Positions 1,016 to 63,000 of a stretch of DNA of 64,000 nt are shown one piece after another (positions within the stretch are counted from its first letter, which is position 1; every line of letters starts with the position of its first letter). The translations under genes and the position numbers were made by a program. The notes beneath the pieces are model-generated. The model was given only the letters and a program-made list of their open reading frames with translations. It was not told where the DNA came from and did not search any database. Source of the DNA: Nereocystis luetkeana (lineage: Eukaryota > Sar > Phaeophyceae > Laminariales > Laminariaceae); the NCBI GenBank assembly GCA_031213475.1, contig JARUPZ010000019.1, positions 5,989,357 through 6,053,356 on the forward strand. The letters are read 5' to 3'.

Positions 1016-1239
1016 CCTCCCCGCGTTCTGATGCTACACCCCTCTCACTGGCTCCCGCCCTCCAAATGCTCGCGAAGTAGCTCCACCACCCTCTCACCGT
1101 CCAGAAGCTTGCCAAAAAGCTCCATCGCTCTTCCTCCTTTCGCATCCCTCTGCCCCCTGTCCCGATCCCCCCCCCCCCCCAAGTTGGGTTGGTGTCGGTT
1201 GGCAACGACACTGTAAAACATGCCACTCAGCTAGACAAC

Positions 1240-1690
1240 CAGGGTACCGTTTTTTGTCGTTGTTTAGGCGGTCGGGCACCGCTGGCGAGCGAGTTATAAA
1301 TATTTTTGCTGGGGGTGGAGAACCTTTACTCCGCACAGGGGGAATGATCGCATCACGTAGTGTTTACGGCAAGACACCCACGAGGCAATTCTGATACATA
1401 GTACCCCTTTTACTGTCTCTGGAAGTGGCCACGCCGGAAAATAAATCAACTCATTATAGCTGTCATCGATGTGCGTGTCCGCCTCACAAGAGATTCTTAG
1501 TACGATGCGGCTCACCATACATGGGACTCGCCGAAGAGCTCACGGCGCTTCGCACTTGGCACAAGCACTGTCTGCCTAGTTGGTGAAAACCCGACGTGCT
1601 CCGTCCCGGCATTGTAGGGAGGCCAGGGTCTATGGTCATACGACTACGGCCACGTATGATATCGAGCACACCCCTACCCCCGCCTCCCAT
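1240..1690 (+). mobile_element. Family B retroelement 3' end
   Basis: Shares with 58680-59140 and 62500-62925, in order: GTACCGTTTTT, ACTCCGCACAGGGGGA, CACCCACGAGGCA, CTGTCTCTGGAAGTGGCCAC, AAATAAATCAACTCAT, TTCTTAGTACGATGCGGCTC, ACCTCACGGCGCTTCGC-like sequence, CCGACGTGCTCCGTCCCGGC, TATGGTCATACGACTACGGC and ATATCGAG, ending in a C-rich tail that passes into the satellite. It has a common 3' end with variable 5' truncation, as expected for LINE or SINE insertion. No complete protein is seen. Confidence 0.72.
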
Positions 1691-2644: not shown

Positions 2645-2930
2645 GATCCTGCTGTCTCTGGACGTGGCCACACCTAAAAATAAATCAACTCATTATACGC
2701 TGGCATCCATTACAAGTCAGCCTCGCAAAAGGTTCTTAGTAGGATGCAGCTCACCCTTCATGCGACTCGCCCAACACCTCACGGCGCTTCGCGCCTGGTG
2801 CAAACAATGTCTGCCAACAGGTCGGTGAAAACTCGACGCGCTCCGTTCCGGCATTGCAGGGATGCGAGGGTCTATGGTCATACGACTACGGACACGCCTG
2901 ATATCGGGTACACCCCCTCCCTGCGATATT
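2645..2930 (+). mobile_element. Family B retroelement 3' end (truncated)
   Basis: Begins at CTGTCTCTGGACGTGGCCAC and keeps the rest of the family B order to TACGACTACGGACACGCC and GATATCGGGTACACCCCC. It is directly continuous with C-rich satellite on both sides. Confidence 0.72.
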
Positions 2931-3515: not shown

Positions 3516-6500
3516 ACTTGCCCCTCCGACTCCAACCACCCAGCAGCTCATCCACCAACCCCATCGCTCTACCACCCTCGCGCAACTCACCAACCAGCTC
3601 AACCGCCCTTCTCTGTACAGAGAAGCGGGAGGAAAAAGTCAGTGGGAGAACAAGGGCTCGGAGGCGAAACGGTTACTGGGATTTTGTGTCGATCAAGGGG
3701 GTGGTATGCTTCAGGGTCGAACAGGTTCGACTCAAACAAGGGGAACGTGTTAAGCGTGTTTTTGAAATCAATCGCAGCCCGTGCGTCGAGGGCAACGTAT
3801 CAAGACATCACCCTCAACAGCCGCCACCCGTTACCCAGCAGCTCGCCATGCAGCTCCTCCGTCACAATCGATTCCCGCCCCGTTCACTACCTTCTGCTGC
3901 CACCCCCCCTTCCAGCTCCCGCCCTCCAGCAGCTCGCCGAGCAACTCCCCCACCCAAGCCTACTCTCACCCCCTACATTCCCTTCCTGCTGTCACCCCCC
4001 CTTCCAGCTCCCGCGCTCCAGAAACTCGCCAAACAGCTCCCCCGCCCCATTTGATACTCCCATTTCCCACACCCGGTCCTTGCTGTCACCCGCCCTACTA
4101 GCCCCCGCCTTCCACTAGCTCGGCATACACCTCCACTGTCCCAGTATACTCCCACGCCCTACATCACTTCCTGTTGCCACCCCCACGTCCGTCTCCTGCC
4201 CTCCAAAAGCTCCCCAAGCAGCTCCTTTTTATCAACCTTCTTCCACGTCCTACATCTCCTCCTGCTGCAACCGCCCCTTCCAGCTCCCGCTCCCCCTTCC
4301 AGCTCGCGCCCTCCAGCAGCTCGCCAAGCAGCTCCTTCCGACCCAATCTACTCCAACTCCCTACATCCTCTTCCCGCCACCACCCCCCTACTAACTCCCG
4401 CCCTCCAGCGGCTCCGCCATCCCAACCTACTCCAACCCCCTACATTCCCCTTCGTGCTGTCACCCCCCCTTCCAGCTCCCGCTCTACGGCAGCTCGCCAA
4501 GAAGCTCGCCAAGCAGCTCCCCCGTCCCAATCGACTCTCGTCTCAGTCTACTCCCATCCCGAATTACTCTCAACCCCTACAACTCCTCCATGCTGCCACC
4601 CTCCCTTCTAGCTCCCGCCCTCCAGCAGCTCGCCAAGCAGCCACCGTCCCAACCTACTCCCACCCCCTACACCCCCTACATACCCTTCCTGCTGTCACTT
4701 CCCTTCCAGCTCCCGCTCTACAACAGCTCGCCAAGCAGCTCCCCCGTCCCAAATTACTCCCATCTCGGTCTACTCCCATCCCCTCTGCTGCCACCCCCAT
4801 GCCAGCTCCCGCTCGCAAGCAGCTCGCAAGCAGCCACCATCCCAACCTACTCCCGCCCCCTATACTCCCCTCCTGCTTCCCCCCCCCCTTCTAGCTCCCG
4901 CCCTCCAGCAGCTCACCAAGCAACACCAAGGTCCAAATCTAGCCCAAACCCCTACACCCGGTTCCTGATGCCAACCCCCCTACTATTAAATGCTCCCGCC
5001 CTCCGCCAGCTCGCCAGGAAGCTCCACTGTCCTACCCTACTTCCACCCCATACATCCCTTCCTGCTGCCACCCCCATTTCCGGCTCCCGCCTTTAAGAAG
5101 CTCCCCAAGAAGCTCCCCTGTCCCATCCTACTCCCCCCCCCTACATTTTCGTCCTGCTGCCACCCCCCCCTTCCAGCTCCCGCCCCCCCCCTGCAGGCCC
5201 CCGCCCTCTAGTAGCTCGCCCTTCAGCTCCCCCGTCTCAATCTACTCAAACCCCCCACACTCCCCTCCTGACGCCACCACCCAATCCAGCTTACGCCGTC
5301 CTGCAGCTCACCAAGCAGCTCCACCGTCTCAATCTACTCCCACCCCCTACACTCCCATCCTGCTGTCACCACCCAATCCGGCTTCCGCCCTTCAACAGCT
5401 TGCCCAGATGCTCCCCCGCCCCCATCTCCTCCTGTCCTAATCTACTCTAACCCATTGTAATCGCTTCCTGCTACCACCTCCCCTACCAGCTCGCGCTCTC
5501 TAGCAGCTCGCCATGCAGGCACCGTCCCAGCCTACACCCACCCTTTCTGCTGTCATCTCCCCTTCCAGCTCGCGCTCTCTGGCAGTTCGCCGAGCAGCTC
5601 CCCCATCCCTAACTACTCCCGTCGAAATCTACTCCCAACCCCTACAATCCCTCCTTGCTGTCACCCCCCTGGCCAGCTGCCCCCCCCCAGGAGCTTGCCA
5701 CGCAGCCATCGTCCCAACCTATTCCCACCCCCTACGTTCCCTTCCTGCTGCTACCTCCCCTTCCAGCTCCCGCTCTCCAGCAGCTCGCCAATTAACTCCC
5801 CCGTCCCTAACTACTTATATCCCACTCTACTCCCGTCGCCTACAACCCCTCTCTGTTGCCGCCCCCCATGCCAGCTCCTGCTCTCCAGCAGCTCGCCAAA
5901 CAAAGCCCCCTTCCCTGAATCTACTCTCATCCCCTACATCCCCTTCCTGCTGTCAACCGCCCTTCCAGCTCCCGTCGTCCAGCTGATCGCCAAGCAGCTC
6001 CCCCCCCCGAGTCTATTCCCCCCGCCTACTTTCCCTCTCTGCCGTTACCCTCTGTTCCAGCTCCTGCTCTCCGGAAGCTCGCCAAGCAGCTCCCTCGCCC
6101 CAGAATACTCCCACCTCCTACACCAATGTCATGTTGCCCCCCTCCGCTACTGCTGTAATAGCTCCCGCCCTCCATCAGCTCGCCGAGCAGATCCACTGTC
6201 CCATCAGATTCCGATCCCCGACATTTCCTTCGTGCTGTCACCCCCTGTGCCAGCTCTCGCTCTACAACAGCTCCACAAGCAGGTCCTCCGTCCCAATTCA
6301 CTCCCGTATCAATCTACTCACATCCGCTACATCCCCTCTCTGCTGCCACCGCTCATGCCTGCTCTTTCTGTCCGGCAGTTCGCCAAACACCCACCGTCCC
6401 AATCTACTCCCATTCCCTACATTCCCTTCCGGCTGCCACCCCCCACTTCCAGCTCCCGCCCTCCAGCAGCTCGCCAAGCAGCACCTGGATCACAGTCTAC

Positions 6501-9500
6501 CCCAAACCTTTACACCCGGTTCCTGATGCCAACCCTCCTACTAGCTCCCGCCCCCCACTCGCTCGCCAAGCAACTCCACTGTCCTACTCTACTTCACTTC
6601 ATATATCGCTTTTTGCTGCTACCCCCATTTTGGCTTCGGCCTTCAAGAAGCTCCCGGAGCAGCTCCCCTGTCCCATATTACTCCCACCCCCTGCATTCAT
6701 TTCCTGCGGCCACCCCCGCTTCCAGCTCCCGCTTCCTCGTCCAGCTCCCGCCCTTCAGCAGCTTGCCAAGCAGCTCCCCCGTCTCAATCTACTCCAACCC
6801 TCCACATTCTCTTCCTGCTGTCACCCACCCTTCCAGCTCCCATCCTCCAGCAGCTCGCAACGCAGCCACCGTCCCAACCTGCACCCACCCCCTGCATCCC
6901 CTTCCTGCTGCCACCCCCCCTTCCAGCACTTGCATTCCAGCAGCTCGCCAAGCAGCTACCCCGTCCCAATTTACCCCCGTCCCTAGAACTCTCATCCCCT
7001 ATGATCATTCTCTACTACCGCTCTCCGAGCCAGCTCCCGCCCCCCAGCAGCTCGCCAAGCAGCTCACCCGACCATGAATACTCCCGCCTCTTGGACGCGG
7101 GTTCTGATGCCACCCTCCATACTAGCTCCCGCCCTCCACCAGCTAGCCAAGCAGCTCCACTGTCCTAATCCATTCCCACAAAGCAACATCACTTCCTGCT
7201 GCCCCCATCACGTCCATCTCCCGCCCTCCAGAAGCTCCCCAAGCAGCTTCCCTGTCCCAACCTACTCCCACTCCCTATATTTTCCTCCGCCCTCCAGCCG
7301 CTCGCCAAGCAGCTCCTCTCGGCCCAATCTATCTCTATTCACGACATCATTTCCACCCCCCCTTCAAGCTCTCGTCCTCCAACAGCTCGCCAAGCAGCAC
7401 CGTCCCAATATACCCCCCTCCCAATCTACTTACATCCTAACAATACTTCTCTTCTGCCACCCCCCATGCCAGCTCCGGACGTCCAGCAGGTAGCCAAGCA
7501 AACTCTCCGTCCCATTATTTTCTCACCTTCTACATTCCCTTCCTGCTGTCACCCTCTCGTCCAGCTCCCGCCTTCCAGCTGCTCGCCAAGCAGCTGCTCC
7601 GATCAAATCTACGGCCACCCCTTACATGTCCTTTCTGTCACGCCGCATTCCGGCTCCCGCCCTCCGGCTGCATGCCAAGCAGCTCACCATGCCAGTTCAG
7701 CCCCATCTTCTCCACTCTCTTCGCTGCTGTCACCCCCTCTACTAGCTCCCGCCTCTAGCAGCTCCCAAGCAGCTCCACCGTCCCAGCATACTCCGATCCC
7801 CTACTTTCCCTTCTTGTTGTCACCCTCTCTTCCAACTCCCGCCCCGCAGCAGCTCGCCAAGCAGCTGCCCCGTCCCAGTCTACTGCCGTCCCAATCTACT
7901 CCCATCTTCTACATCCCCTTTCTGCTGCCATCCCCACTGCCCGCAAGCGCCCTCCGGCACCTCGCCAAGCGAAACCCCCGTCCTAACATACTCCCACTCA
8001 CTACATTTCCTTCCTGCTTCCAGCCCCCCCCTGCAACTCCCGCCCTCCAGCAGCTCGCCAAGCAGCACCCAGATCTCAATCTACTCCAACCTTGGTCCCT
8101 AATTCCAACCCCCCTACTAGCTCCCGGCCTCCATCAACTGACCAAGCAGCTCCGTCGTCCTAATCTTCTCCCACAACCGACATCACCTCCCGCAGCCCCC
8201 ACCACGTCCGACTCCCGGCCTTCAGAAGCCCTCCAAGCAACTCCCCTGTCCCAACCTACTCCCACCCCCTATATTCCCCTCCTGCTGCCACCCCCCCTTC
8301 TCCCGCTCTCCCCTCCAGCTCCCGCCCTCCAGAAGCTCGCCAAGTACCGAACCCGGCCCAATCTACTCCAATCCCCTACTTTCCTTTCTTGCTGCCACCC
8401 CCCCTTTTCAGCTCCCGCCCTCCAGCAGCTTGCCAAGCAGCTCTCTCATCCCTATCTACTTATGTCCCATTCTGCTCCCATCCCCTACAGTCCCTCTCTT
8501 CTGCCACCCCCGATGTCAGCTCTAGCCTTTCAGCAGCTCGCCAAGCAACCCCCCCGTCTCCATCTACTCTCGCCCCCTACATTCCCTTCCTGCTGCCACC
8601 CTTTTTTCTGGCTGCCGCCTTTCAGCTGCTCGCCAAGGAGCTCCCCCACCCCGGTCTACTCCCACCCCTAAATCTCTTCCTGCCGTCACCCCCTCTTCCA
8701 GCTCCTGCCATCGAGAACTTCGCCAAGCAGCTCCCTTGCCCCAAAATACTCTCACCTCCTACACCCGCTTCCTGTTGCCACCCGCCCTACTAGCTCCCGC
8801 CCTCAGTCAACTCCCCACGCAGCTCCACCGTCCCATCTTACTCCCACCCCCTCCATCCCCCTGCCTGTTGTCACAACCCTATTCCAGCTCCCGCTCTCCA
8901 GCAGCTTGCCAAGCAGCCCCCTCGTCTCACTTTACACCCGTCCCAATCTACTTCCACCCCCTGCAATCCCTCTGTGCTTCCCGCCCCCCATTCCAACTCT
9001 CCGACAGCACGCCAAGCTTAACTCCCGTCCTAATATGCCCCCACCCACTGCATTCCGCTCCTGCTGCCATCCTCCCGTGACACCTCCCGACCTCCAGCAG
9101 CTCGTCGAGCAGCAACCCGATCCCAATCAACTCAAAACCCCTACACCCGGTCCCTGGTGCCAACTCCTTACTAACTCTCGCCCTCCACCAGCTCGCCCAA
9201 CCTCTACACCAGTTTCTGCTGCCCCCACCACGTCCAACTCCGGTCCTCAAGCAGCTCGCCAAGCAGCTCCACTGTCCCAATCTACTCCCACAAACCGACA
9301 TCATCTCCTGCTACCCCTACCACGTCCGGCTCCCGGCCTCCAGACGCTCCCCGAGCAACTCCCCTGTCCCAACCTGCTCTCATCCTCTATATTCCCCTCC
9401 TGCTGCCACCCCCTCTTCCAGCTCCCGCCCTCCAGCAGCTCGCCAAGTACCAAGCCCGACCCAATCTACTCCGATCTCCTACTTTCCCTTCTTGCTCCCA

Positions 9501-12500
9501 CGCACATTTTCAGCTCTCGCCCTCCAGCAGCTTGCCAAGCAGCTCTCCCGTCCCTATCTACTTGTGTCCCACATTTCTCCCATCCCCTACAACCCCTCTT
9601 TTCTGCCACCCCCGATGTCAGCTCCAGCCTTCCAGTAGCTCGCCAAGCAAACCCCCCGTCCCCATCTACTCTTGCCCCCTACATTCCCTTCCTGCTGCCA
9701 CCCTCTCTTCCGGCTAGCGCAATCCAGCTGATCGCCAAGCAGATCCTCCGCCCCAGTCTACTCCCACCCCCTACATTCCCTTCCTGCTGACACCCTCTCT
9801 TCCCGCTCCCGCCCTTCAGAAGCTTGCCAAGCAGCTCCTCCGCCCCTGAATACTCCCACCATCTACACCCCCTTCCTGCTGCCACCCACCCTGCTAGCTC
9901 CCGCCCTCCGCCCACTCGGGACGCAGCTCCACCGTCCCAACTTATGCCCACCACCTATACTCCCCTTCATGCTGTCACCCCCTATTCCAGCTCCCGCTCT
10001 CCAGCAGCTTGCCAAGCAGCTCCCCCGTCTCAATGTACTCCCCTCCCAATCTAATCCCATCCTTGTTTACTCTCACCCCCACAGCCCCTCTGTACTGCCA
10101 CCCTCCCTGCTAGCTCCTGCCCTGCAGAAGCTCGCCAAGCAGCCACCGTCCCCATCCACTCTCGCCCCCTACATTCCCTGCCTGCTGCCACCCCCCTTTC
10201 CAGCTCCCGCTCTCCAGCAAGCAGCTCCCCCGTCCCAAATTACTCCCGTCTCGATCTACTCCCATCCCCTACATCCCCTCTTTGCTGCCACCCCCCATGC
10301 CAGCTCCTGCTCGCAAGCAGCTCGCGAGCAGCCATTGTCCCCACCTACTCCTACCCCCTACATTCCCTTCCTGCTGCCACCCCCCCCTTCTAGCTCCCGC
10401 TCTCCAGAAAATCGCCAAACAACACCTAGATCATAATCTACCTCAAACTCCTACTCTCGGTTCCTGATGCCAACCCACTAGCTCCCGCCCTCCACCAGCT
10501 CGACAAGCAAGCCCACTATCCTACCCTGCTCCCACCCAATATATCCCTTCCTGCTGCCGCCCCTATTTCCGGCTGCCACCTCCAAGAAGCTCCTCCAGAA
10601 GCTCCCCTGTCCCATTCTACTTCCACCCCCTACATTTCCCTCCTGCTGCCACCCCCCCTTCCAGCTCCCGCTCCCCCTTCAAGCTCCCGCCCTCCCCCGT
10701 CTCAATCTACTCCAATTCTCCACACTCCCCTCCTGCTGTCACCACCCAATCCAGCTTGCGCTCTTCAGCAGCTCACCAAGCAGCTCCGCCGTCTCTATCT
10801 ACTCTCACCCCTTACACTCCCATTCTGCTGTCACCACCTAATCTGGCTTCCGCCCTCCAACAGCTCGCCGAGATGCCCCCTCGCCCCAATCTACCCCTGT
10901 CCCAATCTACTCCTACCCCCACAATATATTCCTGCTGCCGCCTCCCCTGCCAGCTCCCGCCCTCCAACAGCTCTCCATGCAGTCACCGTCCCAACCTACA
11001 CCCATTCCCTCCATTCCCTTTCTGCTGCCACCCCCCGTTCCAGTTCGCGCTCAATGACAGCTCGTCAAGCAGCTCCCCCTTCCAAACCTACTCCCGTGCC
11101 AATCTACTCCCAACCCCCACAATCCCTCCCTGCTGCTAACCGCCCAGCCGGCTCCTGCCCTGCAGAAGCTCGCCAAGCAGTCGCCGTCCCCATCCACTCT
11201 CGTCCCCTACATTCTCTTCCTGCTGCCACCCCCGTTTCCAGCTCCCGCTATCAAGCAGCTCGCCAAGCAGCTCCCCCGTCCCAATTTACTCCCGTCTCGA
11301 TCTACTCCCATCCTCTACATCCCTCTCTGTTGCCACCCCCCATGCCAGCTCCCGCTCGCAAGCAGCTCGCAAGCAGCCACTGTCCCAATCTACTCCTACC
11401 TCCTGCATTCCCTTCCTGCTGCCACCCCCTCCTTCCAGCTCCCGCTCTCCAGCAAATCGCCAAACAACACCTGGATTACAATCTGCCTCAAACTCCTACA
11501 CTCGGTTCCTGATGCTAACCCCCATACTAGCTCCCGCCCTCCACCAGCACGACAATCAACTCCACTGTCCTATCCTACTTCCACCCAATACTTCCCTTCC
11601 TGCTGCCGCCCCTATTTCCGGCTGCCACCTCCAAGAAGCTCCTCAAGAAGCTCCCCTGTCCCATTCTACTCCCACCCCCTACATTCCCCTCCTGCTGCCA
11701 CCCCTCCTTCCAGCTCCCGCCCCCCCTTCAAGCTCCCGCCCTCCAGCAGCTCGACAAGCAGCTCCCCTGTCTCAATATACTCCAATCCCCCACACTCTCC
11801 TCCTGCTGTCACCACCTAATCTGGCTTACGCCCTCCAGCAGTTCCCCAAGCAGCTCCGCCGTCTCTATCTACTCCCACCCCCAACACTCCCATCCTTCTG
11901 TCACCACCTAATCCGGCTTCCGCCCTCCAACAGCTCGCCGAGATGCTCCCCCGCCCCAATCTACTCCCACCCCCACAATCTCTTTTTGCTGCCGCCTCCC
12001 CTGCCAGCTCCCGCCCTCCAACAGCTCGCCTAGTAGCTCCCGTCCCAACCTACGTCCATTCCCTCTATCCCCTTTCTGCTGCCACCCCCCTTTCCAGTTC
12101 GCGCTCTCTAACTGCTCGCCAAGCAGCTCCCCCGTCCAAATCTACTTACGTCCCAATCTATTCCCAACCCCTACAATCCCTCCCTGCAGCCACCCCCCCG
12201 GCCAGCTTCTGCCCTGCAGAGCTCGCCAAGCAGCCACCGTCCCCATCCACCCTCGTCCCCTATTCCCTTTCAGCTGCCACCCCACTTTCCATCTCCCGCT
12301 CTGCAGCAGCTCGCCAAGCAGCTCCCCCGTCCCAATTTACTCCCGTCTCGATCTACTCCCATCCGCTACATCCCTCTCTGTTGCCACCCCCCATGCTAGC
12401 TCCTGCCCTCCTGCAGCTCGCCAATCAAAACCCCCGTCCCAATCTACTCTCACCCCCTACATTCCCTTCCTGCTACCAACCGCCCGTCTAGCTCCCGTCC

Positions 12501-15440
12501 TTCAGCTGATCGCCAAGCAGCTCCCCCGCCCGAGTCTATTCCCCCCCCACACATTCCGTTCCTGCTGTTACCCCTGTTTCAGCTCCTGCTCTCCAGACGT
12601 TCGCCAAGAAGCCCCCTCGCCCCAGAATATCCCACCTCCTGCACCCGCGTCCTGCTGCCACCCTTCCCTACTGCTGCAATAGTTCCCGCCTTCCACCAGC
12701 TCGCAAAGCAGATCCAACGTACCCATCCCCTACATTCCCTTAGTGCTGCCACCACCTGTTCCAGCTCCCGCTCTACAGCAGCTCGCTAAGCAGCTCCCCC
12801 GTCCCAACTTACTCCCGTCCTAATCTACCCACATCTCCTACATTCCCTCTCTTCTACCACCTCCCATGCCAGCTCTTGCTCTCCAGCGGCTCGTCAAACT
12901 GCCACCAAACAGCCACCACCCAACCTAGTCCCACTCCCTTCATCCCCTTCCTGCTGCTACTCTCCCTTCCAGCTCCTGCCTTCCAGCAGCTCGCCAAGCA
13001 GCTACCCCGTCCCAATTTACTCCCGTTCCAATAACTCTCATCCCCTACAAACACTCTCTCCTGCCGCTACCCACGCCAGCTCCTGGCGTCCAGTAGCTCG
13101 CCGCGCTAAAACCCCGTCCCCATTTTTTCTCACACCCTACTTTCCCTTCCAGCTGGTAACCGCCCTTTCAGCTCCCGCTCTCCACCAGCTCGCCAACCAG
13201 CTTCCCCGCCCCAGTCTATTCCCACCCCCGACAATGCTTCCCTGCTGCCAACCCCCATTCCAGCTCTTGCCCTCCAGAAGCTCGCCAAGCAGCTTCCCCG
13301 CCCCAGGATACTTCCACCTCCTACACCCGTGTTCTGGTGCCCCCCCCCCTACTAGCTCCCGCCCTCCACCAGCTCGCCAAGCAGCTCCACTGGCCTAATC
13401 CACTCCGCAACCAACCTCAATTCCTGCTGCCCCCATCACGCCCATCTCCCGCCCTCCAGAAGCCCCCCAAGCAGCTTCCCTGTCCCAACCTTCTCCCACC
13501 CTCTAAACTCTCCTCATGCTGCCTCCTGCTCATCCTGGCAGCTCCCGCCCTTCAGTCACTCGCCAAGCAGCTCCTCGGCCCAATCTATCCCAACCCCCTA
13601 TATTCCTGCCACCTCCCCTTTAAGCGCCCGTCCTCCTGCAGCTCGCCAAGCAGCACCGTCCCAATATACTCCCGTCCCAATCTACTTCCATCTCTTACAA
13701 TCCCTCTTTCCTGCCACCCCCCATGCCAGCTCCAGAATTCCAGCAGCTAGTCAAGCCAAAGCTCCGTCCCAACATGATCTTACCTTCTACATTCCCTTTC
13801 TGCTGCCACCCTCTCTTCTGGCTCCCGCCTTCCAGCTGCTCGCCAAACAGCTGCTCCGCCCGAACCTACTTAAAACCCCCTATAATACCATTCTGCTGCC
13901 CCGCCCCTTACCTGCTCTCGCCCCCGAGCAGCATGCCAAGCAGCTCACCCACGCCAGAAGCTCCCCAAGCAGCTTCCCTGTCCCAACCTACACCCAGCCC
14001 CTATATTACCCTCCTGCTGCCACTCCCCCTTCCAGCTCCCGCCCTCCAGAAGCTCGCCAAGTACCAACCCCGACCCAATCTACTCCAATCCCCTACTTTC
14101 CCTTCCTGCTGCCACCCCCCTTTTCAGCTCCCGCCCTCCAGCAACTCTCCCGTCCTTATATTCTTCCGCCCCATTCTACTCCCATCCCCTACAGTCCCTC
14201 TCTTCTGCCACCCCCGATGTCAGCTCCAGCCTTCCAACAGCTCGCCAAGCAAACCCCCTGTCGCCATCCACTCTCGCCCCCTACATTCCCTTTCTGCTGC
14301 CACCCTCTCTTCCGGCTGCCGCCTTCCAGCTGCTCGCCAAGGAGCTCCCCCGCCCCAGTCTACTCCCACCCCCTACATTCTCTTCCTGCTGCCATCCCCT
14401 CTTCCAGCTCCTGCCCTCCAGAAGCTCACCAAGCAGCTCCCTTGCCCCAAAATACTTCCACTTCCTACACCCGCTTCCTGCTGCCACCCGCCCTACTAGC
14501 TCCCGCCCTCCGCCTACTCCCCATGCAGCTCCACCGTCCCATCTTTCTCCCATCTCCTGCATTCCCCTTCCTGCTGCCACCCCCTGTTCCTCCCGCTCTC
14601 CAGAAGCTCGCCAAGCAGCTCCTCCGTCTCAATTTACTCCCGTCCTAATTCACTCTCATCCCCTGCAATCCCTCTGTGCTGCCAACCCCCATGTCAGCTC
14701 TCCAGCAGCACCCCAAGCTTATCCCCCGTCCCAAGATACTCCCACCCACTACATTCCCCTCCTGCTTCCAGCCTCCCCCAACAACTCCCGCCCTCTAGCT
14801 GCTCGCCAAGCAGCACCCAGATCCCAATTTACCCCAAACCCGGTCCCTGATACCAACCCCCCTACTAGCTCCCGCCCTCCACCAGCTCGCCAAGTACCTC
14901 CACTGTGTCAATCTACTCCCACCCCCTACATCACTTCCTGCTGCCCCCACCACGTCCCCGTCCTCAAGCAGCTCTCCAAGCAGATCCCCTGTCCCAACCT
15001 GTTTCCACACCCTACATCCTCTTCTTGCTGCCATCCCCCTCTTCCAGCTCCCGCTCCCGCTTCCAGCTCCCGCACTCCAGCAGCTCGTCAAGCACCTCCC
15101 CCGACCAAGAAGCTCCCCCGTCTCTATCTACTCTTGTCTCACTATATTCTCATCTCCTACAACCCCTTTCTTCTGCCTCTCCCCACGTCAGCTCCCGCCT
15201 TCCAGAAGCTCGCTAAGCAACCCCCGTCCCAATATTCTTTTACCCTCTACATTGCCGTCCTGCTGCTACCCTCTCTTCCCGCTACCGCCTTGCAGCTGCT
15301 CACCAAGCGGACCCCCCGTCCCAGCCTACTTCCACACCCTACATTCCCCTCCTGCTACTACCCTCTATTCCAGCTCTTGCCCTCCAGAAGATCGCCAAGC
15401 AGATTCTCCTCCCCAGAATGCTCCCACCTCCTACACCAGC

Positions 15441-15810
15441 GTCCTGCTGCCACCCGCCCTACTAGCTCCCGCCCCCCGCCAATTTGCCACGCAGCTCCAC
15501 TGTCCCAGTTTACTCTCATCCCCTATATTTCCCTTCCTGCTGCTACCCCCTATTCCAGCTCCCGCCCTCCAGAAGCTCGCCAAGCAGCTCCTCCGCCCCA
15601 GAATACTCCTACCTCGTACACCAGTGTCCTGCTGCCACCCGCCCTACTAGCTCCCGCCCCCCGCCAATTTGCCACGCAGCTCCACTGTCCCAGTTTACTC
15701 TCATCCCCTATATTTCCCTTCCTGCTGCTACCCCCTATTCCAGCTCCCGCCCTCCAGAAGCTCGCCAAGCAGCTCCTCCGCCCCAGAATACTCCTACCTC
15801 GTACACCAGT
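15441..15810 (+). repeat. Two near-identical 185-bp dimers within the satellite
   Basis: The block starting GTCCTGCTGCCACCCGCCCT at 15441 recurs at 15626 essentially unchanged and again, diverging, at 15811. 185 is two basic units, so this is a recent dimer-level duplication. Confidence 0.9.
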
Positions 15811-16924: not shown

Positions 16925-17000
16925 GCTGCCATACGACTACGGCCATGTATAAGATCGAGTGCATCTCTCCTATCGAGCCCCCCCCCCCCCCCTCTAGCTT
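16925..17000 (+). mobile_element. Family B tail inside the satellite
   Basis: CCATACGACTACGGCCATGT, ATAAGATCGAGTGCATC, then CGAGC and 14 C. An isolated 3' terminus in the middle of the 92-bp array. Confidence 0.6.
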
Positions 17001-22235: not shown

Positions 22236-23820
22236 CCGATAAGGTACCAGTAGCGGTCAGGGCGTTCCTCAGTTGGCATGAGTATAGGGTGTTGCTGTGT
22301 GTTCACGCTACCACGAGTCGAACAATCTCCTGCGTATCCCATCCCAAAATCATGGCGTTGAATTCCTCGGGTGGAAACACACGGCCGGGACGCCAAGAGG
22401 CATATATACACGTACATCGCACAAAATATTATTCACTCAAGACAACTGACCTACCTGGTATGATACAATCCTTCACGAGATCATTTTACACACACACAAC
22501 CTCGCGATCGAAGTATCGCTCGCAGCAGCTTGCAAAATAAAAATGGTTTCGACGAAAGTTCTCGAATCTCGCTGACACAGCTAACTGAGAATTGTCTATG
22601 CTTTTAACGTTTATGGAAAAAAAGCTAAACTACGAGAAAATACACCGTCGGAACCCCCCCCCCCTTTCCCGAAAAATGCCGTCATCGTTGGGTTCATTGT
22701 ACTGAATACACGATAACGCGCACTACTATACTATCAGGAACAATAGGGGCATTAGCCCTTTTTCGCCCAAAACAAGCGTTTCTGGCTGCCGGGGGCGGCT
22801 TCTTAATCGAAGAATTCTACCCAACAATATCGATGGGAGGCCATTTTTTTTTCACGTGTTCTTTATTCGCTGAGTATACCTGAGGCCAACGAGGTGGTAC
22901 TTTTATTTTTGTCCCTAAAAAAAGGTTACGAGGTGTTTTTTGTTGTTGTGGGGTTTCGAGGAGAGATTTTCAAGCGAGGAGTCGCCGGAAATAACTTGGT
23001 AGCACCCCCTATCGCATACCACTCTGGTCGGAAATATAAGGATCGTTTTTTCAATAATGTAAATACCAAGCGGTCCTTACATTTACGCCCAGATTTGTAC
23101 AGCATGCGTCTAACTAAGGGGTACCGCCTCCTCATTTTTTCTGAGGGTCTTCGTTCGAGGGAGATCTCTACGGTAACAGCTCACCCAGCAGCCATTTTAT
23201 TTATTTATTTATTTATTTTGGGAAAAAAGGCTTAAGCCCGATACCGGTAGACAGGAAGGGTTACGGTTTGGTTTTTATCAACGAACCATATGTATATCTA
23301 TATACCTGGTATGTATTTCCGTTTGCCGTCTGACAATGTGTAGCGCTCGTTCCGATCCTACCATCCACTTGCAAAAGGGATTCCATACTCCACGTAGACC
23401 TCTCTAGTGCCGATACTGCCCAAAATGCACATCGGACGCGTGCAACGACTCGGGTACAGTACGGTAATGGCCCGTCTATGGTGCTGGTCTGCGCCGGCCA
23501 ACAAATACCGTCACTGTAGCGGCAACCGGTGGCACTAACTACTCCGCACACTGCCACACCGGTTAATCCCATGTGGTGCCGAGCGATTTCACAGGCAATA
23601 GTTAAGACAGCCGGCACTAACAGCAGTACTCAATCGGGACTGTAGAGGGACCACTACTACGTACTGAGGAACTAAGCCAATAAGGCAATTGTGTGTTATA
23701 CACAATGTGCGTTATTTTGTTTAACCTTTGTTCAAAGCGAGTCGGCGAGGGAAGAAAGGGCCGAAGTCTTCATCTCGCGACAAAGGAAATAAGCCAGGCC
23801 AGTCAAGGCAAGAACAGTAG
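22236..23820. other. No recognisable gene
   Basis: AT-richer than the satellite. It holds an imperfect inverted repeat at about 22998-23128 (arms around GGTCGGAAATATAAGGATCG and CGGTCCTTACATTTACGCCC, a likely MITE relic related to 39010-39085) and an (ATTT) run at 23198-23218. A 118-codon open stretch on the minus strand (23261-23617) resembles nothing I know. Confidence 0.5.
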
Positions 23821-24095
23821 TGGGAGGGGGGGGGGGGGGGTACTCGATAGGATATACGTACTCGATCTCATGCATGGCCGTAGTCGTATGACCATAGACC
23901 CTCGCACCCCTACAATGTCGGAACGTAGCATGTCGGGTTTTCACCGACCAGGCAGACATTGCTTGCACCAAGCGCGAAGCGCCGTGAGGTGTCTGGCGAG
24001 TCGCATGAAGGGTGAGCTGCATCCTACTAAGAATCGCTCTCGAGGCGGACTTGCATATGGACGACAGCTTCAATGAGTTGATTTAGTTTCCGGGG
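23821..24095 (-). mobile_element. Family B retroelement 3' end
   Basis: Reverse orientation, beginning on the plus strand with about 14 G (the C tail), then TACTCGATAGG, GCATGGCCGTAGTCGTATG, CGGAACGTAGCATGTCGGG, CCAGGCAGACATTGCTTGC and AAGGGTGAGCTGCATCCTAC, to GAGTTGATTTAGTTTCC, where it is truncated. The tail carries an extra TACTCGAT duplication. Confidence 0.7.
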
Positions 24096-24119
24096 TAGGA
24101 ATTTCTAGTAGTGGAAAGG

Positions 24120-24165
24120 GGGGGGGGGGGAGAGAGAGAAAGAGAGAGAGAGAGAGAGAAAGCCG
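24120..24165. repeat. Poly-G followed by (AG)n
   Basis: About 13 G then AGAGAGAGAAAGAGAG repeats. Simple sequence; no other signal. Confidence 0.9.
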
Positions 24166-32485: not shown

Positions 32486-32487
32486 TT

Positions 32488-33244: not shown

Positions 33245-33274
33245 GTAGCCATTCCAACGATAGTCATTCCAACG
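33245..33274 (+). repeat. 15-bp minisatellite, left flank (two units)
   Basis: GTAGCCATTCCAACG and ATAGTCATTCCAACG immediately precede the retroelement. They match the right-flank units. Confidence 0.9.
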
Positions 33275-40691: not shown

Positions 40692-48066
<7,375 letters not shown>

Positions 48067-54000: not shown

Positions 54001-57000
54001 ACGCTTGCTGTTTCGTACGGTGGTACGTAAGATAGGTATGATAGGAAGCATCTCGTTCCCGTTTGAACATTTTTTATTTTATTTTTTTTTTGCTCATCCC
54101 ATTTATTATCTTCGCACATCTTCTTCTCTCTCTCCTTCCAACTCGTAACTCAGATCCGGGGTCACATAGCAGGCTCTTCTACCCCCTTCCCGCTACGGTA
54201 CGTGCCTTCATTTTTATCGCGAGAAGATTTCAGCCTTTTCTTCCCTCGTCGACTCGCATCGAATTGTGCTTACCCACGCTGTAAGGCGCTCTCAACAATT
54301 GAATCCTTTTTTATTTTTATTTTTGTAAATAAAGTCAAAGTCCGACCCACCTGGGGCTCGAACCCAGGACTCAAACAAGTAGAATTCGAGGTTAGCCACT
54401 TGAACCACCGGGGCGACCGGTAATACGTACTATGACTATTAGAACTCCTATACATACTGACATACACACATACGCCTGGCCGATGGTATTTTGTATTTTG
54501 TGCATCATCGCCATTTTTTCCCGTCTCCCTTCTCCTCGGATTTCGCCATACAGCAGCAGTACCTGGTACAGGCAGATACTGCTGCTGTTATCAATGTTTG
54601 ATATGAACCCCTTTAGAACCGCAGTCCCGTTTTGGGGACAAACTACTTGAAAATTGAGTGGTTTGTCCCCAAAACGGGACTGCGGTTCTAAAAGGGTTAA
54701 TAGTACTATTGATACTTGGTACCTGGTGTGCAGGGTCGAAGGTTGTTGTACCAGGTATTCGCAACCAGCCCCACGATGTTCAACATTGCACCGCCGTATA
54801 CCACGTGTGATGAAGTTCCGAGCCAAATGTTTTTCGAGAACAAGGGAGAGACACACGAAGAAGATGGATGGCGGCTTCGGAAAGACCTCTCGTTGAGACC
54901 TTTCCATGGATCGATTGATGCATCGCTCGGCATTATTACTAGGGTGTTGCAACTCTCTTCGTTATGGAGAGGACCAGTTGTTGCGAAAATCGTCCCAAAA
55001 GGGATGGTGTTGTCGTATATACCACGCCTGTTATACGAGCAGTATTATGTACGTACCACTCTGTCCCGAAATATGATCACCGTTTGGTTTAACAAATAGT
55101 GTAAAACCGGTGTCTATGTTATAGGATAGATTGGTAGGTTATTTTTCATGTCATCGTATTAATAGTATGCCAGTTGATACTTTCTACTGTACTACTGCTG
55201 TATGTATTACATACAGTAGTATCGTATACAGTATCGTACTATTAATATTAATACATAAGGCTGTGTGTACTGCTGTTATAGCTTTCGAATAACATCGTAT
55301 CACACCATGATATCGATGACAACCAGGGCATCATCCTACACCTGGTATAATATGTACCTGTACCTTTCCTCAGAGTAGTCCAAGATTTCGTCGAAACTCA
55401 TCTCTGCAAGCCGCGTGTGATACTTCGGTCGCGTGGTACTGCGGACGGGTTTAGTAGGTATGAGAGAGCAATATTATGTATCAGGAATCGTGTAAATACC
55501 TGATAACTGGAATATACCTGGTACCTGGTACCAGGTATCATATTGGCTCGCAAATGTGAATGAAGCGTATCGCGACGGGGTGAAATTTCTGAACTTCTTT
55601 ACGGCCAAAAACAAGAAAATAAGAACATGCGCCCTTTGCCCGCCTCTCGTCACCGACCCCTACCTTTTCATGCGTCCATGCCATCATGTCTACATTGAAG
55701 CTGGATGAGAGATTTTTGGCAGTACATGAACCGTTCTTCAGCTGTAAAAACCGATTCTACCTCCCTCTATAGCCCTGCGAACCCTCCCGAGCGCGCGATA
55801 CGACCGCATTCGCCTCCCCCATATTGAGGTGCTGCCGCTGTTCGATCCAGTGCTATGTTCTACAGCACACCGCCCTTGCCGAATCCCTCTCTCGCTCGCC
55901 GGCGGAAGAGGGTGTTGCTGTTGCCGCGTGCCCTCCCCCCCCCCCCCCCCCCCCGTCACGGCCTCCGTGACTTTTCTTTTAATCATTGCGCTTGCCCCCC
56001 CCCCATCCCTCCGAGTGTACCAGGCCCGGTTTGACCGTGCACACAGTTTTTTTCACCGTTCGTGCGTACGTATCAATGCTTTTGTCCTGTCAAGTGAAAT
56101 CACGTCACGATCTCATCATCCCACATCATCTTCCCTTTTTGCCTATGTTTGTCTGTGTCTGTCTGTCTGTCTGTCTGTCTGTCGGTATGTCGGTCTGTCT
56201 GTCCGTATGTCTGTCTGTCTGTATGGTATGTATTTCTCTCCCTCTCTCTCTGACTCTCTCTCCTTCTATTTTATCTCGCTCTGTCTCTCACTCCCCCTCT
56301 CTCTATCTCTCTGTCCCTCTCTCCCGCGTGCCGGGTAAAAACCCAGGCGCGTTTGGTAATCGTCACCGGCGCGCGGCCTCAGGTTTCGCTGCTGATGCGT
56401 CAAGCCGGGATTAAGGAGGAGTTCAGAGACGATTTGCGCGTCACTAGCAAGGAAGCTCTTCAGGTATATATTACGGGGGACTATATTAAATAGGTCCTAC
56501 GGTACACACAAAACCTCTATATTTACCTATTTTTACTAACAATATTTGGTCCTGTTTACTATGGTCCCCCGTATTAGGAAACTGCGCTAACTTACCGCGC
56601 GACGTGAATTCACCCTTTTTTAACTGCTGATGAACTGATCCAGCTGTATATCCAGATGGTTTTCCCCCGAAATATTGGAAGGGGATGAAAGCTGAACAAA
56701 CAAAAGGATTTACGGCCTGGGATTTACACAAGTGCAACGCGCATGATATCATGGCAAACATATTAGCGGACGTGGTGCATATGTTACCCAAAAAAACATT
56801 TTTTTTTCTTGAACCCACCACGCTTCCACAATCCACCGTGTATCCCCCCCCCCCAGTTCCGTTTCGGAAGAGATGCGTCGTCAATGGTCAATTTACAATT
56901 GCAAGTAACAAATGAGCACCCCCCCTCCCCCCTCCCCCTTCCCCCTCCCTCCCCCCCCCTCCCTCCTCCCCTTGCGAGCAGGCGGTGAAAGCGGCAGCCG

Positions 57001-60000
57001 GGTTCGTCCGCATCGAGGTAGAGAGCGCCTTGACTAGGGGGGGCAGGGGGGGCAACTCCGGTGGCCTTCACGTTTCTGGGGGAAACTACTACTCCGCTCA
57101 GCCGATCGGGGTTAGGGACGGGCTCGATTATGGATGCACGGGCGAGGTGCGCAAGGTCGAAGCGGGCAAGATCAGGTGGGCGAGAGAGAGAGGGAAGGGG
57201 AGGAGGGAGTGGGGAGGGGTTGGCGGGGGGGGGGAGCGGGGGAGGGGGAGGGGAGGGCGTCCTCGTCTTTGTATGTCCTTGGTTGGAGGATATGTGATTT
57301 TGTTGAGCAGGCGTTACTAAGTAATGGGGGGAGGAGGAGGAGGTGGTGGTGGTGTGGTGATGGCGGCGGCGGTGGTGGTGGTGGTGGGGTGGTGGTAGTG
57401 GTGGCGGCGGTGGTGGTGGTGGTGGTGGTGGTGGTGGTGGTGGTGGTGGTGGTGGCAGTGGTGATGGTGGACCGCACCGGCGCCAGGAGCGCCAGGAGCG
57501 CCGCTTTTCTGCGTGGTCGAGGATTACAACGAGTGTTGTCATAAATGGTTCCGAGGTAATTATCGTCTGACATATATGTAGTCGTCTTGAGGCCGTCTTG
57601 AGGCCGTCTACGGGGGACCATAGTAAATAGGACCAAGTATTGTTGGTAAAAAATAGCGAAATATATACCGGTAGTTTTTTTTGTGTGCACCGTTGGTCCT
57701 ATTTAGTGTGGTCCCCCGAAATAGTTTTTATAGATTTTTGTTATTGGATGTTTTGGTCGTCGTCCCGCGTGCGTGAACGCATGCACTACCCGCGTGGCTG
57801 CTGCCCCCTGGGAGATATTGGCACTTTTATTGCTCATTCTAAAAACACGCCACGAGCCGAATGTTGGTTCTGCTCTGTTTTTTTCTGCTTTGTCTTCTTT
57901 TTTTTCTTTTTTTTTTCTCTCTCCTAGTGGTTGTTTGTTTCTTTGGTTTGTGGCTTTGGCACGACGCGCCGCCGTCGTCGCGTTCGCTGCGCCGTCTCCC
58001 CCCCCTTGACGGCTGCACGCATGCGTCCGGCTCGACGAGCCGTTTCTCCCGCCCACCCCCTCAAATCCTTTTAGGACTGCAGTCCCGTTTGGGGGGCAAA
58101 CTACTTGTAATTTGAGTGGTTTTTCCTCACAAACGAGACTGCAGTTTTTGCCCTCGAAGGGTTAATTTAAGCCTTTCAGTAGTGCACTGCACAGGAACAC
58201 AAATTTGACTCTATTTCCAAGTAATTTGTTCACAAAACGGGAGTACGGTCCTTATATAGGTGAAGCGCCTTAGCGCTTCGATAGGACCGGCGGTGGGTGC
58301 CGTTTGTAGTCCCGCCGCCCCGATCAAGCCCTCTTATCGTATGCATGCCGGTATGTGCTGCAGTGCCAAGTGAAATATATACCAGGTATACAGACCATTA
58401 TTTGCTTTGACCGCTGCTGTCTTCCGCCGCTATTGATGTTGCCGCTGCTGTGTACCGCCGCTGCCGACGCCGCCCCCGCCCTGCGCCTCGTCCCCCGCCT
58501 CGTTCCGCCTTGTCCCCCCTCGCGCGTCGTGTTCGCCCGAACGGCGGCAGTGCCCAGCTCAATACGGGAGCGGTGGTAAACTTGACTTGCGTCGGCTACA
58601 GCGCCAGCGGAGAGGTGAGGGAAAACACTAGCGGGTGCGGCAGTGGCGGGCGTGGGGGCGGCGGCGGTGGTGGGGGGGTGGGTGTACTCATTATCATGCA
58701 GGGCCGTAGTCGTATATGACCGTAGACCCTTGCATCTCTACAATGCCGGGACGGAGCGCCTCTGGATTCCACCGACCAGGCTGGCATTGCGTGCACCAAG
58801 CGTGTAGCACCGTGATGTGTTTGGCGAGTCGCATGAAGGGTGAGTTGCATCGTACTAAGAACCGCTACGTATTGAGGCGGGTTTTCTTGCGTATGGATGA
58901 CAGCGTCATGGAATTGATTTATTTCCTGGTGAGGCCACCTCCAGAGACAGCAATGGGTTCTTACTATGGAACTGCCTCGTGGGCGCCTTACCGTATACAC
59001 ACTGCGTGATACGAGCATCCCCCTTGAGCAGAGTTGAGATTCTCCCCGCACAAAAAGGATCTAGCTCGGCCGCCAGCAGTGATGCCCGCCGAAAAGAACC
59101 CAAGAAAAACGGTAACCTGGCTCTCTGGCTCACGCAGTGAAAGGCGTGCTTTACAGCGTCGTCGTCAACCGACGCCAATCCAACCTATATATATATATAT
59201 ATACCAAGTATATAATATAGGAGGGAGTTAAGTGCGGGTGGGGGGATGCTAATATTATTTGTGTTCGTTTGGCAAGCACCGAAAGACGAAACCCTCGAGC
59301 CAAAAGCGAGCCTTAGTCATTTGACCATTGACCATGCATCCGTTTCGAGACGGAGCGTCGCTCCTATGTGCAATAGAGACGCACGCTCCAGCAGTTGGGC
59401 GCTCATTAAGTTGTTTCCGTGTATCACATACATTTTCTTTGCCAATCTTATCCCCTTCCTGGTTCGCCGCCCGTGGCCACCGTCTACCTCCCGCAGGATA
59501 GCGATCGTTTTCTCCCAGCTGTCTTAGTGAACCAAACTCCTCCGTGTTACATTCGTCTATTTTCCCTCGTCTCCTCTTCTAACACGTTCCGTTCCTGCTT
59601 GTACATTTTGTATTTTCCTATTACCTGCAGGGGAGTTCCATTCTCTATTGCTGGGGGGCGTTCTCAATTGTTGCTTGCTCAGTCATTTGACCATTATCCA
59701 CACACCCCTTTCGAGACGGAGTAGAGGGAAGAGCGGGGGGGGGAGGGGGGGGGGGGGTGAGGAGGCGGTTGGGTTCGGTCTGGTCGAACCGGGTTTAAGA
59801 ATTTGGGGGTGATTCGCTTCAAGAGATGCCCTTCAAGACCGTTGTGGTAGCGGAATTTGTATCTCTTATACATCCGCACCCACCGTTCAAGTTGCGTGGG
59901 GTCAGAGTGGGGATATGTTTTGCAAGTATACAGGTCACACCCTACCCAGAAGCGACCGGGCTGGCCGGCGGAAAAGGCGCAGGAGCGTGATCTCGTGCTC

Positions 60001-63000
60001 TCTTCTCTACACTCCACCGTCGCCCGTGTCGTGCGCGCGCACCGTGTCGCCTTCCCCCCCCCCCCCCACCCACCCCCCCCGCCCGCACCGATGCATTACA
60101 CGAGCACACGCCCCCCAACCTTCTCTCTCCTTCGCTCTGCTTTTTTTTATTCATCTCTCCCTTTCCCTCTCCTTCTCCCTCTCCGATTTCCCTCTCCGTC
60201 TCCGTCTCCCGTCCTTATCCCCCCCCCCCCCCCCCCGCTCCTCTCGGTTGGCTTGGCTTGGCTGGGGTGGGCATCGGCCACCGACGTCTTAGGTGTTCAA
60301 TGTGGACAGCGTTGACCTTGCCGCCAAGTGCGCGGCGGCCCTCCGAGCGTCTAAGCTGGTCTACGTTACCGATGGCACGTTCCTCGAGGACATCGTAACA
60401 GGTCTGTGACAAACTCATCTAGCAAACGGTCACTTCAACGTTGCGCACGTAATTTGGTGGGGAGGCGGTATGTGGGGGCGGGGGAGGGGGGGGTGGGGGT
60501 ACTCGTCATCATGCATGGCCGTAATCGTAGATGACCATAGACCCTCGCATCCCTCTTTATACCATGCCGGGACGGAGCATGTCGGGTTTTCACTGACCGG
60601 GCAGACAGTTGCTCGCTTGCTTGCACCTAAGCGCGAAGCAAGCGCCGTGAGGTGTTGGGTGAGTCGCGTGAAGTGTGGGCAGCATCCTACTAAGAACCGC
60701 TTGTGAGGCGGACTTTCTTGCATGTGGATGACAGCGTCGAATTAACATATTTGTTTTTTTGGTGTGGCCACTTTAGCGGGAGTGGCGGTGGGGAGGTCGG
60801 TGGCGGGGGTCGGGGAGGGGGCGGGGGTGGGGCTGGGGACGAGGGTGGGAGTGGGGTTAGTTCTTCCGTTTGGACGTAAGAGAGGGGACGTTCCTACAGG
60901 ACGTAATAATACAGGGGACGTTCCTGGGCTCCTCCCCCCTCTTCCGCCCCCCCCTCCTCCTCCCCGTTCATGCAATATACGGGGTACTTGGTGACTGTTT
61001 TTTTTCTCGACAGGGGGTGGGTGGGCTTACATACGCACAGTAGTACGGATTTGTTCGTGATCGGCGTCCGCCCCATTGGCTGGGCACGGTGTCTATTTTT
61101 CTGTTTGTGCTGGTGCTGCTGGTGCTGCTGCTAATACTGCTGCTGCTGCTGCTGCCGCCGCCACCGCCGCCGCCTCCCCGTGCGCGTTTGTTTTTTTTTC
61201 TGTCAGAACAAAATCCGCGGCAGGCAGTGACGGGGTTATAGAGGGTTCCCATTCAGGCCAGCCTTTTATTTCTTTATCTGCACTTTGTTTGTTTGTTCCT
61301 GTTTCTCGGGGGGGTTCTTTGCGTCCGCTAATACGCGCCCGTTGTCCGTTGCCCGTCCGTTCGCGGTGGAGGCGGCAACAACGGCAGCAGCAGAAGTAGC
61401 ACCCATCGAGGGGCCCCCTTCCACCGCTCGACTGGCAAACAACCCAGCGCCCCCCCACCCCCCACCTACCCCCGACCTGCCCCTCCCCATTACTCCACCC
61501 GAGTTTTTGGTGCTATCTATCTAGCGACACCGTAAAGCGAGCCTCCATCTCTCGGAGGTTAGGCAGCTGGTGTCGCGCTACCGGCGAAAAATGCTTCCCC
61601 ATCCCCACTCCGACCCCCACCCCCACCCTACCCCCACCTTTCCCCCCCATCCCATCATCCCACCCCACCCCCCCCCACCCGACCACGGATCCGCCCCAGG
61701 CGACACGGTCATGAGCCTCCGTCTCTCGGAGGCGAGACAGCTGGTGTCGCGCTATCAGCAGAAGAAGAATAAGGACAAAGCCGCCGCCGCTGCCGAGACG
61801 GCGTCTCCGCCAATCCCAACGGGGAGCGTGGGCGCGAAGAGGGGAGGGGTGAAGGGGCAAGCGCGCGGCGGAACCGAGGCAGGGCTGATGAAGCTCATGG
61901 ACAGAGCGGTCATGTCGCTGAGCAAGGTGGGCTGCTGTGCGTGGGTTGGGTTAGGTTGGGTTGGGATTGTTTTGGTTGGTTTGGGTCGGGTTGGGCTAGG
62001 TCTGTTTCATACTGGAAGGTGTGTCGTGTGGCGCTTGTCGGGGGGGAGGGGGGGGTGGTCAAGCGCCAGCCGGGACATTTTTTCGTCCTCTGAAGTATTG
62101 ACCTTGAGAAGCGCCCGCTCACCCCATCCCACCACTCCCACATGCACCTACAGTAGTTACCTGCACCTGCGACACCCGCCCACAGCACACACACGCCGAC
62201 GAGCTTGCTTTCCACTGGTTTCCTCTCTTTGAGTCGGGAAGGAACAAATCGCGCGTAGCTCAAGCGCCCCTTTCCTTTCCTCCCTTTCCACCACGCGACC
62301 TCTCTTTTAGCACACCTCATTCGTTCATCGTCTTCACTCTTGGAGGCTTCGCCCCCCCCGCCATATCTCTCTCCCCCCCCCTCTCCCCCTCCCCCCCCCC
62401 CCCCCCCCAAATGGTCATACGACTACGGCGATGCATGAACAAAAGTACACCCTCCCTCCGTTCCCTTTCTACCCCCTACCCCCTCCCTTTGCTTTCTTTG
62501 GCGGTCGCCACGGCTGGCCGGCGGCCGAGCTAGATCATTTGTGCGCGGTGGAGAGCCTTCACTCCGCACAAGGGGGATGGTCGTATCTACGTAGTGTGTA
62601 CATGGTGACGCACCCACGAGGCAGTTACATAGTGTACCCGTTGCTGCCTCTGGAAGTGGCCACACCAGAAAAAAAATGAACTAATTCAACGCCGTCATCC
62701 GTATGCAAGAAGATCCGCCCGCACAAACGGTTCTTAGTAGGATTGCAGCTCACCCTGCATGCGACTCGCAGAACACCTCACGGCGCTTCACACTCGGTGC
62801 AACAAGCAATGCCTGCCTGGTCGGTGAAAACCCTTCGTGCTCCGTCCCGGCACTGCAGGGATGCGTGAGTCTACGCTCATACAACCACGGCACTAAGATT
62901 GAACTCAGCCCCCCCCTCCTCCCTCCCCCCCCCCCCCGCCTTCATGTTTTTTTTTGTGTTCTTCTGCTGTTGCCCCGCCAGGGCGTGTCTAGGGCGCACA

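Follow-up and report, generated by a model that had tools for sequence, protein, structure and literature searches.

Why does a retroelement family end in a run of C, and does that run come from the element or from the site at which it landed? The question was raised by a 64,000-nucleotide (nt) stretch of the brown alga Nereocystis luetkeana (contig JARUPZ010000019.1, positions 5,989,357 to 6,053,356), referred to here as the window. It contains copies of a dispersed family, B, which the original prediction described as a target-primed retroelement with a poly-C tail. The fixed 3′ end, the 5′ truncation and the presence of C instead of A all hold, and a long interspersed element (LINE), named A, carries the same tail. 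What does not hold is the view of the C-run as simply a tail. It seems to be partly tail and partly target, the origin of the tail being inferred. We consider it probable that B is a non-autonomous element resembling a short interspersed element (SINE), that A is its partner LINE, and that insertion proceeds by target-primed reverse transcription in which the 3′ end of a genomic G-run anneals to an RNA ending in C.

Family B and its copies

The B consensus was built from the window copies and from fetched loci, namely 20 stretches of 10 kb and 20 LINE loci. The 20 stretches (L005–L024, 200 kb) were picked around listed B matches, so that B-rich places were sampled; genome-wide pattern counts cover the whole 465-Mb assembly.

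With up to 3 mismatches allowed, the window has six occurrences of the 3′ block of B, TATGGTCATACGACTACGGC (972, 1631, 2873, 23877 on the minus strand, 44033 and 62410), where 100 shuffles gave a chance expectation of 0.00. In the assembly we counted 8,399 exact occurrences (4,217 on the forward and 4,182 on the reverse strand) and 25,748 at up to 2 mismatches; controls with the backward pattern gave 0 and 1. BLAST with the B consensus recognized seven copies in the window, with differing 5′ starts and a common 3′ end (Table 1). This agrees with the minimum number originally predicted; the coordinates given with that prediction deviate from the aligned ends by 5 to about 60 bases. In three of these copies (58683, 60499 and 62493) the block is decayed and was missed by the pattern search at up to 3 mismatches. 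Three tail-only copies had been claimed as well, and the claim stands for those at 972 and 62410. By eye, a partial duplicate of the stretch at the 43965–44072 copy lies at about 43915–43960.

The B unit is about 490 nt long, with a short TATTTTATATA start in addition. Among 55 3′-complete copies from the window and L005–L024, 24 begin within 20 nt of the consensus start and 31 are truncated. A common form repeats ATCGAGTAC ahead of the C-run, while others have a single GAGTAC (by eye). Nearly all full-length copies (23 of 24) contain an internal run of 5–20 T, which would be expected to stop RNA polymerase III.

ARAGORN found no tRNA in the window and five loci. Rfam yielded nothing at the gathering threshold in the window, and three matches of one B copy (E 1.7–2.9) were far below it. 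With neither tRNA nor Rfam support and with no 5′ head of the classical SINE kind, a small-RNA origin was rejected. As it has no recognizable small-RNA head, B is SINE-like and not a proven SINE. Two further origins were rejected: B is not an internally deleted A, since a convincing match to A is confined to the 3′ tail, and it is not a satellite or simple tandem repeat, since its copies are dispersed over contigs and their flanks differ. No relatives were confirmed in viral contigs.

An array of nine B pieces was observed on the minus strand of L005 (C1:11000-20999), at about 3600–6900. A C-run followed by TACACC recurs at several of its junctions, which suggests either that one site was hit repeatedly or that duplication occurred locally.

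A probable partner LINE with the same tail

Copies of A end in GAGTACG followed by C, and their 34-nt 3′ end was found 3,702 times at up to 2 mismatches. The A copy with the longest open frame (921 amino acids) among 150 scored matches, L045, carries an Exo_endo_phos domain (PF03372, E 6.2e-13) and an RVT_1 domain (PF00078, E 2.8e-28) in two separate open frames on the same strand. The reverse transcriptase (RT) frame extends almost to the 3′ end, and its solved relatives include LINE-1 ORF2p and R2. The 3′-complete copies begin at many positions, that is, a fixed 3′ end is combined with variable 5′ truncation. Endonuclease, RT, truncation and target duplications (see below) together indicate, at the level of sequence, that A is an apurinic/apyrimidinic endonuclease (APE)-type LINE, a non-long terminal repeat (non-LTR) retrotransposon.

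The consensus tails of A and B align over about 70 nt with a score of 58, compared with a mean of 16.3 (standard deviation 2.7, maximum 30) for 2,000 dinucleotide shuffles. BLAST of B against A gives a match at E<0.01 in the tail only. This shared tail ends in GAGTAC(A/G), then C, and A is the probable autonomous partner of B.

The LINE of loci L025–L044, which dominates the RT search, was rejected as a partner of B: of four copies inspected, three show the region past the open reading frame (ORF), which is T-rich and unlike B in sequence that stops short of the true 3′ end. Many of its RT matches have equal scores, and frames of up to about 1250 amino acids are present in dozens of the 150 scored matches, which suggests that this family has been recently active.

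C-runs at the 3′ ends

Exact forward copies of the B block are followed by at least six C, beginning 18–48 nt past the block, in 3,499 of 4,217 cases (83%; counts taken as one per copy, plus-strand rows being single and minus-strand rows nested). At least six A in the same position were counted in 19 of them. Most exact forward copies thus carry a C-run, and the family does not have a poly-A end of the L1 kind.

In L005–L024, a run of at least five C lies within 70 nt of the 3′ end in 44 of the 48 B copies that are 3′-complete and in 9 of 12 A copies, against a background of 6.5%, while equally long G-runs were found at 2 of 48 and 0 of 12 ends. When the window is included, the C-run is present at 50 of 55 B ends. 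It starts no more than 3 nt from the terminal TAC in 36 of these 50, and its length varies from 5 to 30 (median 8); the fixed position and the variable length that the original prediction proposed to look for were therefore both observed. With window copies included and L045 in the A set, such a run is missing from 5 of the 55 B ends and from 3 of 18 A ends. In the window, all seven B copies are followed within 60 nt by at least five C. Runs directly adjoining a copy reach 15 C, at the 23858 and 43965 copies, close to the approximately 16 first reported, and that of the 1183 copy is weak (CCCCTACCCCC).

C-runs of this length are far commoner at the 3′ ends of B than upstream of its truncated 5′ ends (44 of 48 vs 8 of 26; Fisher P = 9e-8). 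A real C tail therefore still seems to be needed, and the target alone would not suffice, unless many insertions made no duplication.

C-runs at the insertion sites

Within 25 nt upstream of truncated 5′ ends in L005–L024, at least five C occur in 8 of 26 B copies (P = 8e-8) and 4 of 12 A copies (P = 1e-4), against a background of 2.3%; some of these copies sit in stacks and are non-independent. The corresponding G-runs were found in 0 of 26 and 1 of 12. A genome-wide comparison, which covers C and G, used the reverse-strand exact copies of the block. At least six C lie within 20 nt upstream of it in 441 of 4,182 copies and at least six G in 4 (nested forward counts, 2,857 and 26). We read the 441 copies as tail-only ones whose truncation point is no more than a few bases from the block, given that the B consensus lacks a run of this kind at that position. 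Some of these upstream C-runs may be tails of neighbours.

The clearest duplications starting with C belong to two A copies, the one at 449–949 (22 bp, identical, with C12) and one in L009 (17 bp, identical, with C8); the search gave none of that quality for other A copies. In B they were found in L021 (16 bp, identical, with C9), in L016 (16 bp with one mismatch) and at 23858–24098 (24 bp, with mismatches); further ones, in L014, L024 and the L005 array, are shorter or weaker. With the GAGTAC(A/G) of the element excluded, the C counts of the 5′ and 3′ copies are 12/12, 8/8, 9/9, 13/14, 6/7, 4/5 and 11/6. Because the 5′ copy also carries the C-run, part of that run is duplicated target, and because the duplications start with C, a tail alone is insufficient.

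A single case shows insertion at a C-run plus extra C on the 3′ side. Another repeat of this genome has a native C-run, which is unoccupied in three sampled copies (two in L012 and one in L018). One genomic copy of this repeat, L046, the sole match to the pattern, holds a tail-only B exactly at the C-run. The 5′ side reads C8GACG, followed by the B tail and then by ACACCC-A-C11-A-CCC-GACGTCGCAG. C8GACG was therefore duplicated, and the 3′ tract of 17 C, broken by two A, exceeds the C8 of the target. For a second native C-run repeat, one exact pattern run against the genome gave 0 occupied copies.

Native C-run repeats in L012, L018 and L007, with runs of about 8–14, have the forms GCCAGTGGAC-Cn-RCGTCG and CCGGGAGTT-Cn-AGCCGACTGG; neither A nor B was detected there.

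These observations bear on the simplest alternative, a classical poly-C tail delivered to random targets, with the 5′-flank C-runs being chance or remnants of neighbours' tails. It would account for the difference between 3′ ends and 5′ flanks, for the surplus of C on the 3′ side of L046, and for a dimer in L011 whose C-rich stretch lies outside an apparent CCGGACA duplication that has no C-run (seen by eye). It does not account for identical duplications of 16–22 bp starting with 8–12 C, for the ratio of 441 to 4 directly upstream of the block, or for the L046 site, where the C-run is native to another repeat. We therefore regard it as unlikely.

Same-orientation stacks

In L005–L024, A or B neighbours within 80 nt of each other form 30 pairs in the same orientation and 0 in opposite orientation, although in some of the 30 the aligner may have divided a single element in two. 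In 23 pairs the upstream member is 3′-complete, compared with about 0.94 expected from a simple random-placement estimate. In L016, where a B stands before a truncated A, the repeat that flanks B takes in 10 nt of the A body, so that the two must be separate insertion events.

Stacks might also arise in one event if the RT, at the 5′ end of an RNA, jumped to the C tail of a second one. The C-rich linkers between units are consistent with such jumps, as are the full-length B that forms the downstream unit in 11 of 23 pairs and the few C that often precede TATTTTATATAGG at the start of single full-length copies. As the source of the stacks this is doubtful, because the L016 repeat with its 10 nt of A body needs a separate later event and because divergence differs strongly within some stacks (e.g., 83 vs 95%). 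Template jumping may add to the main mechanism instead of replacing it.

A model of insertion into C-runs

In the mechanism that we favour, target-primed insertion of A and B at C/G homopolymers, the A protein would recognize the shared 3′ tail of both elements and thereby move B as well as A. At a C/G homopolymer in the genome, its endonuclease would nick the G-rich strand, and the freed G-run 3′ end would pair with the C end of the RNA and prime reverse transcription. Second-strand joining would duplicate the target, giving duplications that begin with the C-run, while early stops would leave 5′-truncated and tail-only copies. Any C beyond the target's own would derive from the RNA end or from slippage of the G primer on the C template. 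Each insertion would leave a C-run as a possible next landing site, and head-to-tail stacks of A and B in the same orientation would follow. We find the arguments evenly balanced for the full C/G-homopolymer cycle, in which each insertion renews or lengthens the C-run and the family, with its tens of thousands of copies, creates the sites for its next insertions.

Several results weigh against this mechanism. As to confinement to microsatellites, enrichment of C-runs is strong, yet 18 of 26 truncated B copies have no run of at least five C within 25 nt upstream; either many insertions occurred without duplication or C-run targeting is merely a preference. The flanking duplications that the original prediction called for exist in some clear cases starting with C, but they are few. 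Clear duplications are a minority, and their excess over swapped flanks is modest. An unanchored test with C-runs masked gave no excess (score of 6 or more in 31 of 55, vs 55% for swapped flanks). Anchored tests gave 4 of 55 vs 0.43 expected for 10-mers with up to 1 mismatch, 4 of 47 vs 1.6 for truncated copies with a score of 7 or more, and 11 of 24 vs 6.2 for the full-length class, the last inflated by neighbouring B copies. Both duplication scripts lean to C, since one starts past a run of at least four C in the 3′ flank and the other gives C partial credit. The L011 dimer belongs here too. The downstream member of a stack is nearer the consensus in 9 of 15 same-family pairs, which is not significant. 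Stacked copies are non-independent observations, and the choice of L005–L024 around B matches has to be kept in mind for all rates obtained from them.

The link between A and B is open to similar caution. Mobilization of B by A is suggested by the shared tail. Two stems can be drawn in both tails, with modest folding z-scores of −2.4 (one A copy) and −1.0 (one B copy), and RNAalifold yielded no common fold for the tails, so recognition through RNA structure is put forward as a suggestion only.

Pure microsatellite targeting without a tail, in which the RNA would end in GAGTAC(A/G) plus a few C and all long C-runs would be pre-existing, is in our view improbable. It would suit the roughly equal 5′ and 3′ C-runs of most clear duplications, and targets for it exist, given that 45 of 95 runs of at least eight C in the 200 kb lie away from detected A or B (at least two of the 45 adjoin short undetected tail pieces). 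The imbalance between 3′ and 5′ flanks, the excess at L046 and the L011 dimer all speak against it. Under another alternative, the C-runs would play no part in integration and would have lengthened later, through replication slippage at a short C end encoded by the element. This would fit their variation from 5 to 30 and a genome rich in C-runs, but it predicts neither 5′-flank C-runs nor C-containing duplications nor same-orientation stacking and, being largely refuted already by the 5′-flank enrichment, is highly improbable.

Features of the window

Table 1. A and B elements and target duplications in the window, in order of position
Position	Strand	Feature	Description	Identity	Source
427..448	+	5′ copy of target duplication of A 449–949	22 bp, CCCCCCCCCCCCTCCCCGTGTC		
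449..949	+	LINE A copy, 5′-truncated	query 3803–4320 of 4320; end of RT ORF and 3′ tail	90%	
950..971	+	3′ copy of the 22-bp duplication	no difference from the 5′ copy; immediately follows GAGTACG		
972..1012	+	tail-only B piece	end approximate; directly after 3′ target duplication of A 449–949		
1183..1670	+	B copy, near full length	consensus 2–490	83%	BLAST
2650..2912	+	B copy, 5′-truncated	consensus 231–490	88%	BLAST
23816..23839	-	3′ copy of probable duplication of B 23858–24098	C14 then TCCCACTACT		
23858..24098	-	B copy, 5′-truncated	consensus 249–489; nearest the consensus among window copies	95%	BLAST
24107..24130	-	5′ copy of probable target duplication of B 23858–24098	C13 then TTTCCACTACT		
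43402..43539	+	LINE A 3′ end	followed by C-runs		
43749..43814	+	LINE A 3′ end	followed by C-runs		
43965..44072	+	B copy, 5′-truncated	consensus 374–490, then C15		BLAST
56858..56919	+	LINE A 3′ end	C11 just upstream, C-runs downstream	79%	
58683..59185	-	B copy, full length	consensus 1–490	80%	BLAST
59311..59652	-	LINE A 3′ region	query 3973–4301; degenerate end, without a run of at least five C within 60 nt		
59659..59721	-	LINE A 3′ end	C-runs both upstream and downstream		
60499..60773	-	B copy, 5′-truncated	consensus 243–489	80%	BLAST
62410..62445	+	tail-only B piece	end approximate; long C-run before it		
62493..62891	+	B copy	consensus 88–470	82%	BLAST

Other features were noted in the window. 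A probable remnant of a different non-LTR element lies on the plus strand at 33197–35011; its C-terminal residues give the impression of a restriction-like endonuclease, and Pfam gave no match. From about 4000 to 22000 there is a long irregular C-rich stretch with a GC skew near −0.6; open frames several hundred residues long occur there in more than one reading frame, and the stretch looks like a degenerate tandem repeat. On the minus strand at 40692–43177, two open frames, apparently exons of one gene, correspond to separate portions of the MYST-family histone acetyltransferase model PF01853. A dispersed repeat of about 110 nt occurs at 24874–24978, 32487–32604, 32799–32908 and 56469–56577, with a copy inside the L045 A query as well. 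Since it matches on both strands in some places, it is partly self-complementary, in the manner of a miniature inverted-repeat transposable element.

Relation to known systems

Human L1 and Alu have a poly-A end and an A/T-rich target. A and B are similar to them in having a homopolymer 3′ end able to pair with the nicked strand, in 5′ truncation and in duplication lengths, and differ from them in using C/G instead of A/T and in sharing a specific tail sequence.

Microsatellite targeting is known in the R1 and Tx1 clades of non-LTR elements. A and B likewise tend to insert into simple repeats, but their preferred target is a C/G homopolymer that matches their own end, and it is common to a non-autonomous family. 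The available portion of PMC4640811 describes some HERO families that target microsatellites, and target-specific APE elements in the Tx1 and R1 clades.

According to the accessible text of PMC13295347, the first duplicated bases agree with the terminal unit of the element in Bov-B and its SINEs. The agreement between the start of the duplication and a terminal, microsatellite-like unit is a feature that A and B share with plant RTE and reptile Bov-B LINEs and their SINEs. The ends given there are T or A stretches, (CAA)n and (ACCTTT)n, and not C as in A and B.

Stringent LINE/SINE pairs are treated in PMC3747384, the available part of which lists poly-A, TAA and TGTAA as terminal repeats, mentions poly-T SINEs and links the TGTAA end to template slippage. 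As in the UnaL2-type pairs described there, in which LINEs have short terminal repeats (TGTAA, TAA), B is a non-autonomous element with a LINE-homologous 3′ tail. Unlike them, A and B have C as the terminal unit, recognition of a stem-loop is putative, and B has no recognized small-RNA head.

In the available parts of PMC3747384, PMC13295347 and PMC4640811, the LINE and SINE ends are A-rich, T-rich or short mixed repeats, and none is C. Among the titles and abstract openings listed by literature searches, in part top matches only and with Repbase and subscription papers outside their range, there was no report of poly-C-tailed LINEs or SINEs.

The link between the terminal repeat of an element and its nicked target has been studied mostly with poly-A. 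A large family that uses C would allow primer–template pairing to be tested as the factor that sets both tail and target. The abundance of C-runs in this genome could also be explained in part by a C-targeting family, whose stacks record repeated hits at one site. The C/G cycle, if true, would be the G/C counterpart of the poly-A system of L1 and Alu, with targets that propagate themselves.

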